NCBI GenBank assembly: GCA_017454675.1
Contig: JAFTCN010000053.1
Location: forward strand, 1 to 64,000
Length of the DNA: 64,000 nucleotides
Source: Clostridia bacterium
GTDB lineage: Bacteria; Bacillota; Clostridia; Oscillospirales; CAG-272
Direction of reading: 5' to 3'
Positions 19,343-27,449 of this stretch are shown piece by piece. Numbering within the stretch: the first letter of the stretch is position 1; the number at the start of each line of letters is the position of its first letter. A program made the translations under genes and the position numbers. The notes beneath the pieces are model-generated. The model was given only the letters and a program-made list of their open reading frames with translations, was not told the origin of the DNA and made no database searches.

Positions 19343-20671
19343 TCAGATGACCGCGAGGAGCAGCAGGATCAGGAAAATGACCAGCAGCGCTCCCCTGAAC
19401 GCCAGGCCTATGAACGAGCCCTTGCGGCAGGATCTGCGGTTGCGCATATAATTGTGCTTGCGGAAGACCGCGGCGGCGATGAGCCCGAGTATCGGGAAAA
19501 GGAAGGCAAGGACTCCGAGCCAGGCATTGCCGGTGTCGTGGAGAGGAGTGTCGAGGATCGGTTCGTTCGAAACGTTGTAATCCGCGTCATCCTTCTCCTT
19601 TTCCTGACCGTCGGCGGGAGCGTTGACGTCCTTGATAGTGACCGGCTTGAGCGGGATGCCCGCTTCGCGGATCTTCTTGTATTCCTCTATCTCGGAGAGA
19701 CTTCCGAATACATAGTGATCGTGCCCGATCGGACGGAGCTCCGGAGTCTCGCTGCTGTAGTCATGTATCGAGGGATCATAGGTAAAGAGCACCTTGTTCT
19801 TCTCAAGCAGCGGATCGGGAATCGGTATGGCCGAGATTAGCGATCTCGTGTAGGGATGGAGCGGGAAATTGAAGAGTTCCTCGGACGACGCGACCTCGAC
19901 GATGTCGCCCTTGTAAATGACGCCTATCCTGTCGGAGATGAATCTGACGATCGAAAGGTCGTGGGCGATGAAGAGGTAGGTGGTACCGCGTTCCTCCTGG
20001 AACTTCTTCATCAGATTGAGCACCTGTGCTCTGATCGAAATGTCGAGCGCGGAGATCGGCTCGTCGGCGATGACGAGCTCCGGCTCCATTACCATGGCTC
20101 TCGCAAGACCGATCCTCTGGCGCTGGCCGCCCGAAAACTCGTGTGGATAGCGCGTCAGGTGCTCGGGGAGCAGGCCGACCTCGTCGATGATCTTCTCGAC
20201 CTTCGCGACTCTCTCGGCCTCGTTCTTGAAGAGATGGAAGTTGTATAGTCCTTCGGAGATGATGTAATCCACCGTCGCGCGCTCGTTGAGCGAGGCGGCG
20301 GGATCCTGGAAGACCATCTGGATGTTCCTGATGACTTCCCTGTCGACCGACTTCGGGATCTTTCCCGAGATCCGTACGCCCTTGTAGTCGATCTCGCCGG
20401 CGGCGCAGGGGTTGACTCTGATTACGGCTCTGCCTATCGTGGTCTTCCCGGAGCCCGACTCTCCGACGAGCGAGAAGGTCTCGCCCCTGTAGATGTCGAA
20501 CGAGGCGTTCTTTACGGCCTTGACGGCCCTGTCGCCCTTTCCGAATGTGATGTCGACATTCTTCAGCGACAGAAGTATCTCGCGGCCGTTTTCGTCGAAC
20601 GGACCGTTTGCGGGGAGATGTTTGGCTTTTGAAAGATCGGCGGCGCCGTTGTGATTAAGCTGTTCGTTCAT
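19343..20671 (-). CDS. oppF: oligopeptide ABC transporter ATPase OppF with added C-terminal membrane segments
   Basis: 442-residue ATPase energising peptide uptake. Walker A GESGSGKT (70-77), a [13 protein letters not shown]-loop, [17 protein letters not shown] signature, ADEPISALD Walker B and an AHDLS switch are all intact. The usual C-terminal oligopeptide region ([16 protein letters not shown]) follows. Family members normally end at about 320-350 residues. Here an acidic linker leads to two hydrophobic segments (about 384-403 and 420-442) separated by a basic loop with one Cys. This tail resembles a small two-helix membrane domain fused to the ATPase, so the subunit could be anchored on its own. 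Confidence 0.93.
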
Positions 20672-20675
20672 AAAG

Positions 20676-20688
20676 CTGCCCCCCTGTC
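20676..20688 (-). repeat. G-rich leader motif, copy 1
   Basis: GACAGGGGGGCAG directly follows, and partly overlaps, the oppD stop codon and sits just before the oppF ATG. It is identical to 19254-19266. Confidence 0.6.
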
Positions 20689-22486
20689 AGATATTGAAAG
20701 CTTCGATAAGCTTTTCATGGATGTTCCTGATCGCTTCGGGCTTTTCGATCTTCGGTGATCTGGGATCGAGCAGCCAGGTCTTGGCATAGTGGGTGTCGGT
20801 GATCCGGAACATCGGAGGATCGAGAAGAGTGTCGATCTTCAGGCAGTAGGGATTTCTCGGAGCGAACGGGTCGCCAACGATAGTGTTGTAGAGGCTCGGA
20901 GGAGTACCGGTGATCGAATAGAGTTTGGTATTCCTCTTGGCAAGCTGCGGCAGCGACGAAAGCAGCGCCCAGGTGTAGGGATGACGCGGATCGAAGAAAA
21001 TCTCGTTTACGTGTCCGACCTCGACGATCTGTCCGGCGTAAAGCACCGCGACTCTGTCCGCTATGTTGGCCACGACTCCCAGATCGTGCGTGATGAATAC
21101 GATGGTGTAGTTGAATTCTCTCTGAAGATCCTTGAGCAGCTTGAGTATCTGAGCCTGGATCGTGACGTCGAGAGCTGTGGTGGGCTCGTCGCAGATAAGG
21201 ATCTTGGGCTGGCAGGACAGCGCGATGGCAATGACTATCCTCTGCCTCATTCCGCCGGAATACTGGAAGGGGTAATCGTCGAACCTCTTCTCCGCCTCGG
21301 GGATGCCGACCTTCTTCATAAGGATGAGAGCGCGCTCCCTGGCTTCGAATTCAGAGCACTTCTGGTGCTTCAGAATGACCGACGTGATCTGCTTTCCTAT
21401 CGTGATGATGGGGTTGAGCGAGGTCATCGGGTCCTGGAAAACGGTGGCGATCTTCTTTCCTCTGATCTGGGTCCAGTCGGTCTGTTCCTTGATCTTGGCG
21501 AGGTTGAGGATGCATTCGCCGTGCAGCGTTTCTTCGGTCTCGTCGATGTACCTTACCCTGAATATTACCCTGTCGAACACCTTGTTGCGCTCGGACATAT
21601 CGGACAGGTCGATGCCCGTCTTCATGGCCTCAGTGCAGCATTTTACGAGCCTGCGTCGCATGTTCGCACCGCGGAGGCCTCCGATGCGGCCGGTCGAGAG
21701 CAGTATCTCCTTCGCGAGGATGAGATTGCGCTCAGAGATGCTCTCGGGGACGGTGACATTCGCCATCTCGATGTATTTCTTACCGAGCTCGAGTCTTTTC
21801 TTCTCATACTCGGTGTTGTACGAAACGTCGCCGGCGGCCTTTGCCTTTTTCTCGGCAGCCTTTATCTTTTTCTGCGCCTCGATCTTCTTTATCTCTTCGG
21901 AGAACTTCGCGATCCTGGCGTCGGCCTCTTTAATGGCCTCTTTTTCTTTAGAGGAGTCGAGAGTGAGTTTGTGGTTGTAGACTTCGGTCTTCTGGAACAG
22001 CAGTTCCTTCAGCTGGACGTCGAACTCGGCGGATTCCTCGGGAGTGAGCTTCGCGCGGCTCTCCTTCTCTTTTTTGAGCCTGTCGAGCTCGACCCAGACC
22101 GGAGAGGCGAACTCACGGCCGTAGTTCCGGTCGAGTTCTTTTCGAATGGATTCGACGGTCTTGCGATGCTTCCTGCTGTTTGAGACGTTCGTCGTGACGA
22201 GTTCTTCGTCGTTGTAGATGATGTCGCCGCTGTCGATGAAACCGTTGCTGTCGAGCATCCCGGCGAAGGTCTTGGTGAAGACGGATTTGCCCGAGCCTGA
22301 CTCGCCGACTATGGCGATCGACTCGTTCTCCATGACGTCGAGCGAGATGCCGCGTATAGCGGTCAGCACTCTGCCTCTGACGTGGAATTTGACTACAAGA
22401 TCCCTGACCGAAAGGAGCACCTTCTCCTTTTTGTCAACAGTGTTTTCAGTGACGGCGTTCATGCCTGCGTCTTTGTATTCAGCCAT
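20687..22486 (-). CDS. oppD: oligopeptide ABC transporter ATPase OppD with large internal insertion
   Basis: 599 residues from the ATG at 22486, which has GAGG six bases upstream; an earlier GTG is less likely. Walker A GESGSGKS is at 61-68, but the Q-loop FQDPMTSLNP is at 350-359. About 225 extra residues (roughly 100-330) sit between them, where typical OppD (about 330-350 residues) has a short link. The insert is Lys/Glu/Ala-rich and probably coiled coil in its middle, then has a Cys-Cys and basic segment. YSGGMRQR (409-416), CDEPTTALD (432-440) and THDLG follow normally, as does the C-terminal oligopeptide region. The catalytic motifs are intact, so the ATPase should be active. Confidence 0.93.
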   Translation of the reverse strand: MAEYKDAGMNAVTENTVDKKEKVLLSVRDLVVKFHVRGRVLTAIRGISLDVMENESIAIVGESGSGKSVFTKTFAGMLDSNGFIDSGDIIYNDEELVTTNVSNSRKHRKTVESIRKELDRNYGREFASPVWVELDRLKKEKESRAKLTPEESAEFDVQLKELLFQKTEVYNHKLTLDSSKEKEAIKEADARIAKFSEEIKKIEAQKKIKAAEKKAKAAGDVSYNTEYEKKRLELGKKYIEMANVTVPESISERNLILAKEILLSTGRIGGLRGANMRRRLVKCCTEAMKTGIDLSDMSERNKVFDRVIFRVRYIDETEETLHGECILNLAKIKEQTDWTQIRGKKIATVFQDPMTSLNPIITIGKQITSVILKHQKCSEFEARERALILMKKVGIPEAEKRFDDYPFQYSGGMRQRIVIAIALSCQPKILICDEPTTALDVTIQAQILKLLKDLQREFNYTIVFITHDLGVVANIADRVAVLYAGQIVEVGHVNEIFFDPRHPYTWALLSSLPQLAKRNTKLYSITGTPPSLYNTIVGDPFAPRNPYCLKIDTLLDPPMFRITDTHYAKTWLLDPRSPKIEKPEAIRNIHEKLIEAFNI

Positions 22487-22494
22487 GCCGCACC

Positions 22495-23496
22495 TCACAT
22501 ATGTGTTCTCGGGTCGGAGGCGTCACCGAGGTTCTGTCCCACGACGTAGAGAACTATCGTAATGATCGAAGCGATCGCGACCGGAGCCCAGAATTCGAGC
22601 TGCATACCGGGCGTGAACATAGAGGGCTGCGCGGTACCGATGAGTTTGCCGAGCGAAATATCGGACATCGTAAGTCCGATGTAGCTGAGGAATACTTCAT
22701 ATGAAATATATGAAGGGATCTCTGTGGCGGCGAGAGTTACGATGACCGACACCATGAAGGGCAGTATGTTCTTCATGGCTATACGGAAGATCGATGTCCC
22801 GAGGCAGCGCGATGCCAGATTGTACTCACGGTCGCGGATTATTACGACCTGGGTCCTGATAAAATACGCGATGCCGAGCCAGCCGGTGACAGTCAGAGCG
22901 AAGACCAGCGACCAGAAACTGGCCGAGAGCAGCATGACTATGACCGAGATGAGGAGTATGTACGGCACATTGCCGATGATATTGTAGACCTCCTGCATGA
23001 TGAGGTCGAACCGCTTGGAGAATCCCCAGACCGCGCCGAGCACGACGCCGATGGCCATATTGATTATGGCACAGATGAAGGCGAGCGAAAGCGAGATCCG
23101 GGAACCGGTCCAGATGGCGTCAAACGTGGATTCGCCGACGCCGCCCGAGCCGAGTATCCAGTGGATCTTCGCGTCGTCCGGATGGAGCTCCATCGCCTTT
23201 TCGGGAGTGAGATGCTTTCCGCCCTCGGTCAGGACGCTCGAGAAGCGGTCGTAATTTGAGAACATGGGATAAATGTAGGCAAATACCACGATAACAGCAA
23301 GCAGGCCGAGTATAACGATATTGATCTTCTTTCTGAAGAAGACTCTGAACACAGAATGCCAGTAGCTGTATCTGGGTGCCGTGATCTTTTCTGCCGCGAG
23401 TTTGTCGCTTTCGACTCTGCTGAAGAGTTCCTCTTCGGGAATTCCGAGAGACGAGAGGTCCTGAAGTTTTTCAGTTTCGGTCGTATTTCCGTTCAT
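22495..23496 (-). CDS. oppC: oligopeptide ABC transporter permease OppC
   Basis: 333-residue inner-membrane permease of near-normal length. A cytoplasmic N-terminal region is followed by a first membrane segment (IVILGLLAVIVVFAYIYPMF). The external loop has WILGSGGVGES, in place of the usual LGTDxLGRD, and then about five membrane segments with the ATPase-coupling EAA loop (ASRCLGTSIFRIAMKNILP). GAGGTGA overlaps the end of oppB and spaces well to the ATG. The gene ends eight bases before the oppD start. It is the least altered subunit of this transporter. Confidence 0.93.
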   Translation of the reverse strand: MNGNTTETEKLQDLSSLGIPEEELFSRVESDKLAAEKITAPRYSYWHSVFRVFFRKKINIVILGLLAVIVVFAYIYPMFSNYDRFSSVLTEGGKHLTPEKAMELHPDDAKIHWILGSGGVGESTFDAIWTGSRISLSLAFICAIINMAIGVVLGAVWGFSKRFDLIMQEVYNIIGNVPYILLISVIVMLLSASFWSLVFALTVTGWLGIAYFIRTQVVIIRDREYNLASRCLGTSIFRIAMKNILPFMVSVIVTLAATEIPSYISYEVFLSYIGLTMSDISLGKLIGTAQPSMFTPGMQLEFWAPVAIASIITIVLYVVGQNLGDASDPRTHM

Positions 23497-25280: not shown

Positions 25281-27449
25281 TCAATACAGACCGATGTTCT
25301 TGGCCATGCCGCCGGCCTGCGGAAGCATGGTGTCGAGGTAGGTCTGGGGATCGCCGAAGTCAGGGCCCCAGCCGCAGACGTCGACGATGTTGTAGTTCAT
25401 GGTGTCACCGGTCTCCGGATAGTAGCCGGCGTTATACCAGTTGAGAGCGTTCGAACCGCCGGTCTTTACGAGAACGACCTCGACGAGTTTGCCGAGAGAG
25501 GTCTCGATCGACTGCTTGAGAGCGTTGGCTCTGGCGGTGTAGATCTCGTTGATGTCATAGTACGGAATCTCAAGCTTTATCGGGGTCTTCTCGGTGACGG
25601 TGATGCCCTGCTCCGCAAGCTCTTCGACAGCCTTGGCCATGTAAGCCTTCGCGTTCTCGGCATTGTACCATCCGTCAAATCCGGCAGAGGAGCCTGCGCC
25701 CTCTTCCTTGGTGGGATCCCAGACCTTGATCTTGATGCCGTCGGCATCGATCTGGTCCTGCATGATCTGTCCGTAGTAGGTTCCGGCGGCGTAGGTCTTG
25801 TCGGTGCCGTTGATCTTTACGGTCGCGGCCTCGGGAAGAGATACGAAGTTGCCGGGAGTGTAGGAGTTAACGAGCGACGTGAGCTTGAGTTCGTCGCCGG
25901 TCGTCGTGGCGTTGTAGGCGCCGCGGTCGAGAGCGGTGCAGACGGCAAGCCTGAAGTTCTGGTTGCCCATCGCGATGTTGGTACGGTTCTTCTGGTTGTC
26001 AGAGAGAGTCGTCGGAGCGATCGTGGGATCGTCGTAGTTGCCGTACTGAGCGCGGTAGAGGTTGAGGAACATCGGGTAGGAAGTCGCATCGGTGGCGGAG
26101 ACGTAGGCGTACTCGTCAAAGAGTCCGTCGGCCTTGCACTTCGCGAGAGCCTGGGTGTTGAGGCCGGCGCCGGCGAATTTGCCTTCCTTGAACTTGTCGT
26201 AGCCGAATGTCGGGTTGGAACCGTCGGAGAATGTCCAGGTGATCTTCTTGAGCGTGACGGCGTCCTTGGCGTAGAACTTGTCATTGAGCTCGAAGACGAT
26301 GCTGTTCTTCTCGGTGGCGGAAGTTACGAGATAAGCGCCGCAGTAAGCGATATCGTTCGGGGTCTTGCCGTAGGTGTAAGCGTCGCTCTTGGCCTTTTCG
26401 GCAAATTCGTCAACGCCGAACACACCGCCCTTGGCAGCAAACTGGACCTCGCTCAGAGGAGCGAAGATGTTGTAGCCGAACATGGTGAGGAAGTAGGTGC
26501 AGGGGGCCTCGAGAGTATACTCAAGAGTATAATCGTCAACAGCCTTTACGCCGACCTGCGAGAAGTCGGTGATCTCCTTGCTCATGTAGGCGTCGGCATT
26601 CTTGATGATGCCGCTGACGAGGTACTCAAGTCCGCCCTGGGCGTCGAGCATGTGGTGCATGGCGGCCACGAAGGACTTGGCGGTAACGGGCTCAAGAACT
26701 CTGCCCTGAGAGTCGACCCAGTCGACGCCCTGGCGGATCTTGAAGGTGTAGGTAAGACCGTCGGCGGAAACGGTGGGCATCTCGGCGGCGAGAGCGGGCT
26801 TCAGCTCATTCTCAACATCATACTCGAGAAGTCCGGTATAGGTGTTGATGATGGCTTCGGAGTCAGCCGAACGGTAGGTGTTGAAGGCGTCCCAGGTCTG
26901 AGGGTCAGAGGTGTAGCCGTACTCGTAGGTATCCTGGAAGGTGTAGCCCTTTCCGGTGAGGTACTTCTTGGCTTCCTCATAGTAGGTGCCGGTGCCCTTC
27001 TTGGCGTTCCAGAGAGCTTTGAGTTCGTTTCTCTCGGCAGCCTTGATCGGCTTGTCGCCCGCAACGATCAGGAGCCTGTAGTATCTGTAGGAGTCATTGC
27101 CCCACAGAACAGGCGTCGCGGTATAGGGAGCGACTTTGGAGATGGCGTAGTTGCCGCCCTTGGAAGTGGACGGGAGCATAACGCCGGATTCGAGAAGCTT
27201 TGCCTCGGCGATGGCCATGAGGGCAAATCTTTCGGCAACGGTCTTGGCTTCCTTTGCAGCCTTGTAAGCGGTATCGAACTCGCCGAGAACCTTCTCGTAG
27301 ATTTCGTCGGAGATCTCAGCATGGGTCTTTCCCGCGTAAGGATCGGAAACAATACCGCCTGCCTTCTCGGGATCGCTGCAGGCCGCGAATGACGCCGCAA
27401 GCATCACAAGCACGAGAGCGACCGAGATCAGTTTCATGAGTTTCTTCAT
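25281..27449 (-). CDS. oppA: peptide-binding lipoprotein OppA, apparently circularly permuted
   Basis: 722-residue lipoprotein with AGGAGG 11 bases upstream and lipobox Cys24. Family 5 binding proteins normally begin with a DPxT...YEGLxEYD segment soon after the signal and end with an A-E-x-LL...P helix region. Here that C-terminal-type region is at the front (about 43-155: TVAERFALMAIAEAKLLESG, then MLP and APYT). The N-terminal-type region starts near 178 (TSDPQTWDAF, then TYTGLLEYD). The protein stops about 16 residues after GDPQTYLD, where relatives usually continue. All parts seem present but in rotated order. It leads the opp operon and should capture peptides for OppBCDF. Confidence 0.88.
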   Translation of the reverse strand: MKKLMKLISVALVLVMLAASFAACSDPEKAGGIVSDPYAGKTHAEISDEIYEKVLGEFDTAYKAAKEAKTVAERFALMAIAEAKLLESGVMLPSTSKGGNYAISKVAPYTATPVLWGNDSYRYYRLLIVAGDKPIKAAERNELKALWNAKKGTGTYYEEAKKYLTGKGYTFQDTYEYGYTSDPQTWDAFNTYRSADSEAIINTYTGLLEYDVENELKPALAAEMPTVSADGLTYTFKIRQGVDWVDSQGRVLEPVTAKSFVAAMHHMLDAQGGLEYLVSGIIKNADAYMSKEITDFSQVGVKAVDDYTLEYTLEAPCTYFLTMFGYNIFAPLSEVQFAAKGGVFGVDEFAEKAKSDAYTYGKTPNDIAYCGAYLVTSATEKNSIVFELNDKFYAKDAVTLKKITWTFSDGSNPTFGYDKFKEGKFAGAGLNTQALAKCKADGLFDEYAYVSATDATSYPMFLNLYRAQYGNYDDPTIAPTTLSDNQKNRTNIAMGNQNFRLAVCTALDRGAYNATTTGDELKLTSLVNSYTPGNFVSLPEAATVKINGTDKTYAAGTYYGQIMQDQIDADGIKIKVWDPTKEEGAGSSAGFDGWYNAENAKAYMAKAVEELAEQGITVTEKTPIKLEIPYYDINEIYTARANALKQSIETSLGKLVEVVLVKTGGSNALNWYNAGYYPETGDTMNYNIVDVCGWGPDFGDPQTYLDTMLPQAGGMAKNIGLY

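Follow-up and report, generated by a model that had tools for sequence, protein, structure and literature searches.

The locus examined here raises the question of whether a peptide-binding surface lipoprotein of a gut or rumen bacterium carries the C-terminal part of its lobe at the front of the chain. The gene lies in a stretch of 64,000 nucleotides (the window) and is a single uninterrupted open reading frame of 722 aa on the minus strand (25281–27449). The landmarks that led the initial annotation to propose this rearrangement were all correctly placed when checked on the translation: a lipobox (FAAC, with Cys24 as the lipobox cysteine), a AEAKLLESGVMLP...APYT block at about residues 80–110, WGND at 116–119, LKALW at 143–147, SDPQTWDAF at 181–189, TGLLEYD at 205–211, and GDPQTYLD at 699–706, after which 16 residues remain to the end at 722. 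The features of the gene and of its operon neighbours are as follows.

25281–27449, minus strand: gene for the permuted AmiA/OppA-type binding lipoprotein, 722 aa (PF00496 at 119.5 bits; Ami/Ali alignments)
27378–27449, minus strand: signal peptide and lipobox FAAC with the predicted lipid-modified Cys24, residues 1–24 (sequence; pattern)
27324–27377, minus strand: flexible linker, residues 25–42 (low pLDDT around 20–30; relatives vary in length and sequence)
26955–27323, minus strand: moved C-terminal block, residues 43–165, with two lobe-2 helices, the end strands of domain I and the helix equivalent to Ami/Ali alpha19 (alignments; model helices)
26952–27059, minus strand: alpha19-like helical bridge, residues 131–166, linking the former C-terminus with the former N-terminus (aligned with the end of the AmiA/AliB chain; model helices)
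25284–26942, minus strand: old N-terminal body, residues 170–722, with domains I and II and the larger part of domain III (lobe 2) (alignments; AliD domain limits of PMC11192437)
25359–25370, minus strand: WGPD motif, residues 694–697, equivalent of AliB W500/D503 (alignment; PMC11192437)
23503–25143, minus strand: OppB/AmiC-type permease with an extracytoplasmic insertion of about 300 residues after TM1
22495–23496, minus strand: OppC/AmiD-type permease
20687–22498, minus strand: OppD-type ATPase whose ATPase domain contains a long insertion
19343–20671, minus strand: OppF-type ATPase with a hydrophobic C-terminal extension

A family-5 (SBP_bac_5, cluster C) core is present, since PF00496 scored 119.5 bits against a gathering score of 32.4. 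This match spans residues 215–712 only and Pfam is silent on the front block, a pattern that taken by itself would fit an unrelated or duplicated domain (residues 43–165) added before a truncated binding protein. Comparison with solved proteins argues strongly against this reading. The best four PDB sequence matches were the pneumococcal proteins AmiA, AliB, AliC and AliD (E 1e-61 to 4e-57; next-best match E 9e-24), and window residues 170–721 aligned to positions 4–501 of these proteins while residues 50–162 aligned to their C-terminal positions 504–636; in the PDB chain numbering this second piece fell at 519–631 and equivalent positions. The two-part, swapped match thus spans nearly the whole chain. 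A profile of 21 sequences likewise matched the front block to the C-terminus of the solved proteins (i-E 7e-8 for AmiA, 4.5e-9 for AliC and 3.5e-7 for AliB), and the hits of residues 43–166 in 11 canonical AmiA-like proteins (i-E 4e-8 to 1e-4) all fell at the C-terminal end; shuffling the front block 50 times gave no match to the canonical proteins. In the reverse comparison, those canonical AmiA-like tails that gave a match touched the window protein only at about residues 46–152. We found no second copy of the C-terminal block inside the protein and none downstream of the gene, where the stop codon and oppB are only 137 bp apart. Such a block closes the chain in all four solved relatives, and the front block is homologous to exactly the canonical C-terminal block that is missing from the end, making an added domain very unlikely; at the sequence level, the swapped and reverse matches exclude residues 43–155 being an unrelated domain with a complete C-terminal lobe elsewhere in the chain.

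The C-terminal block therefore precedes the core, at residues 46–165, and its two parts match a single parent the other way round, no large piece being absent. With a probability of roughly 0.93 in our estimate, the window protein arose by natural circular permutation of an oligopeptide-binding lipoprotein of AmiA/Ali type that serves an OppABCDF importer. The parent had been named as a generic OppA/DppA protein; its assignment to family 5 stands, but the best PDB sequence matches show it to be of the AmiA/Ali type.

A scan of GTDB genome contigs yielded 19 loci with 41–100% identity to the window protein. Full-length matches were found in 11 of 295 genomes of the same order, the window's own included, and a sample of the phylum (399 genomes) returned the window's genome and one more (G436). 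In every full-length relative (27/27, all from metagenome-assembled genomes; 40–77% identity, plus one near-identical) the block came first and the core second, and permuted order was also met in other family-5 lineages, as described below. A lipobox-type signal was recognized by pattern in 23 of the 27. The window gene is linked to OppB, OppC, OppD and OppF, and in the relatives oppB, C, D and F follow the permuted gene wherever the contig is long enough. The window itself is part of a metagenome-assembled genome split into 87 contigs, a source in which misassembly, a frameshift or a pseudogene could join pieces of tandem oppA genes. Such an artefact is very improbable here: the frame is uninterrupted, and the same order and the same operon recur in 27 full-length relatives from other assemblies. 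On these comparisons the permutation is real and old, and it looks functional. Two further peculiarities of the operon were noted. The OppD-type ATPase (603 aa) owes its length to some 200 residues of charged, coiled-coil-like character inserted between Walker A and the Q-loop and kept in relatives, and the hydrophobic end of the OppF-type ATPase resembles two transmembrane helices.

The AlphaFold model of the window protein is confident (pLDDT 90, pTM 0.86; low pLDDT around residues 20–30), with helices at 43–66, 71–87, 137–150 and 156–166 in the moved block. AmiA was the best clean PDB structure match (TM 0.73 of target, 556 columns, 3.3 Å, by Foldseek in sequence order only), a result that omission of the displaced block from such an alignment would predict. 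In AliD, lobe 1 consists of domain I (29–63, 191–296, 583–617) and domain II, lobe 2 spans 297–582, and an extra C-terminal helix, alpha19 (622–652), packs on lobe 1 (PMC11192437). Mapped onto AliB through the offset chain W474 = W500, the cut falls at about AliB 527–530, in lobe 2, so that the moved block comprises the last lobe-2 helices, the end strands of domain I and alpha19; by the same mapping the end of the old N-terminal body falls inside lobe 2. The alpha19 feature is thus present in the window protein, as an aligned region with predicted helices at 137–150 and 156–166, but it is internal. In AliB, W500 and D503 hold the peptide N-terminus (PMC11192437). These Ami/Ali-type residues are kept as W694 and D697, which together with P696 were invariant in 21 sequences, suggesting that peptide holding is retained.

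This mapping supports a placement of both termini in lobe 2 instead of lobe 1, and the lipid anchor has probably shifted from lobe 1 to lobe 2 with them. A changed presentation of the mouth of the binding protein to OppB/OppC, as the initial annotation had also suggested, is conceivable. In the Ami model, extracellular domain 2 of AmiC contacts lobe 1 only and AmiD contacts lobe 2 (PMC11192437); given these contacts and the large insertion after TM1 of the window OppB, which is of the same kind as in AmiC, we infer that the tether would change sides.

An ancestral gene of normal order was probably rearranged, with tandem duplication followed by fusion and trimming of the outer parts as the simplest putative route. 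The former C-terminus, alpha19-like helix included, now continues into the former N-terminus, and new ends opened in a lobe-2 loop just past the peptide-holding WGPD...DPQTYLD segment. Such a protein should fold and close on peptides like AmiA, going by the predicted fold and the conserved motif, and would be tethered to the membrane via lobe 2 and not lobe 1. No duplication intermediate with the block at both ends was found among the relatives examined. Canonical AmiA-like proteins with a front extension were considered as such intermediates and rejected, the one extension compared resembling no other part of its own chain at a significant level; by eye, the extension of about 160 residues (L058, L060, L061, L064) resembles a domain of the copper-amine-oxidase N-terminal type. 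A 1115-residue open frame (L132) was similarly rejected as a fused dimer, its first half looking like an unrelated upstream open frame.

Another permuted family-5 protein (P0002), of OppA type and without the alpha19-like part, is encoded beside an AmiA-type permutant in L003, which thus holds both kinds a few kilobases apart. Searches with P0002 and with a junction alignment (A2) revealed further permutants. Those cut at the same structural place as the window protein (cut 1) are of OppA type (L003 at 1–1446 on the minus strand, L082, L083, L084, L089 and L130; the L083 gene contains an internal stop). In a second group the cut comes some 90 residues nearer the N-terminus of the canonical chain (cut 2; L087, L088, L090–L094), and in a third it lies near the border of lobes 1 and 2 (cut 3; L096, L098, L138). 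The cut-2 and cut-3 proteins are ~70% identical to proteins in canonical order (L102, L103, L105, L106). With canonical L103 as the tblastn reference, rotated pieces were found in L117 (q335–623 then q40–334, 66–71% identity), L116 (q338–622 then q47–334, 74%) and L118–L123 (about q435–623 then q45–430, 60–78%), and L138 was likewise rotated; L112–L114 matched in canonical order (69–75%). Alignment of L103 to solved OppA, using the usual OppA domain limits, puts all three cuts inside the lobe-2 domain or at its margin. A further permuted clade from more distant Bacillota families (L168–L172, L175, L176) is cut close to cut 2, its signal being of secretion type without an obvious lipobox. An AlphaFold model of a cut-2 protein, made with 7 close sequences, had a pLDDT of 50, too low for a structural claim. 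Directly downstream of a cut-3 permuted gene, at L116 6538–7089 on the plus strand (the same place as L096 2618–3262), lies part of another binding protein, its C-terminal half (31% identity), possibly a remnant of a tandem copy.

The number of origins was assessed on a tree of 63 proteins rotated in silico to one register; L007, whose contig starts inside the gene, was left out. The AmiA-type permutants of the window form one clade of single origin (support 100/99) beside canonical AmiA-like proteins. The L168 clade (100/100) and the cut-2 clade (98/85) were also recovered, and cut 3 adjoins cut 2 with canonical proteins nearby, one clade mixing canonical order with two different cuts at about 70% identity. 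Six changes between the permuted and canonical states were needed on this tree. A single clade of AmiA-type and cut-1 OppA-type permutants was rejected (dlnL 275, p 5e-85), as was a single clade of all permutants (dlnL 822, p 1e-4). One clade of cut 2 and cut 3 was not rejected (p 0.35), making a stepwise path from canonical order to cut 3 to cut 2, with one origin, possible. Canonical L085 is nested in the OppA-type cut-1 group (p 0.025 against one clade), reflecting either a reversal or several origins. With the root not fixed and sampling partial, the tree suggests a minimum of about four origins and one cut shift for family-5 permutants.

The window protein is a genuine, conserved circular permutant, made more interesting by recurrence. 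What the recurrence means bears on the purpose of the permutation and not on its existence. It could be neutral: the permuted chain would fold equally well, have become fixed through drift and leave anchoring and transport unaffected. Another family-5 clade, in which canonical and permuted relatives coexist at about 70% identity and nothing is evidently lost, fits this possibility. We place it somewhat below even odds: in every separate origin the new N-terminus lies within lobe 2 or at its margin, and an anchoring adaptation was also suggested for an earlier permuted binding protein (PMC4990184). We lean towards a reading in which family-5 peptide-binding proteins of Bacillota were permuted repeatedly (~4 origins or more, plus cut shifts) at three places within lobe 2 or on its border, in one lineage apparently step by step (canonical to cut 3 to cut 2), and in which the recurrent outcome, an exported and usually lipid-anchored N-terminus on lobe 2, may be selected for docking or anchoring. 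Near relatives, some canonical and others cut at different places, form an unusual natural series. It allows a direct test of whether import depends on where the membrane anchor sits on the binding protein, and of the ways in which circular permutants originate and go to fixation. The displaced tails escape standard family models, Pfam having seen the core only.

Our search of an open-access library found no report of permuted OppA or other family-5/cluster C proteins. The window protein shares its domain content and fold class with the OppA/DppA proteins of PF00496, in which, unlike here, the A-E-x-LL...P block comes last. It resembles AmiA, AliB, AliC and AliD (PDB 8a42, 8qlj, 8qlh and 8qlc; PMC11192437) over nearly its whole length, including the alpha19-like helix, the WGPD peptide-holding motif and its lipoprotein nature, and its OppB/AmiC with a large extracytoplasmic part recalls the pneumococcal Ami system; it differs in carrying about 120 residues of the C-terminal block at the front, and in a chain that starts and ends in lobe 2, not lobe 1. 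The closest precedent is TpMglB-2 (Tp0684), a circularly permuted glucose-binding lipoprotein for which 'Cluster Bc' was proposed, whose relatives occur in gut Gram-positives and whose authors suggested an adaptation of anchoring (PMC4990184). Both are naturally permuted binding lipoproteins of ABC importers, but TpMglB-2 has the Cluster B (type I) sugar-binding fold, which the model of the window protein does not show, its 50 best PDB structure matches being of family-5 type with peptide-binding proteins first. In TpMglB-2 the strands from the N-terminus now stand at the end, and the chain crosses the hinge a fourth time, whereas in the window protein the tail has moved to the front. With the window protein, natural circular permutation is found in two fold classes among the binding proteins of ABC importers.
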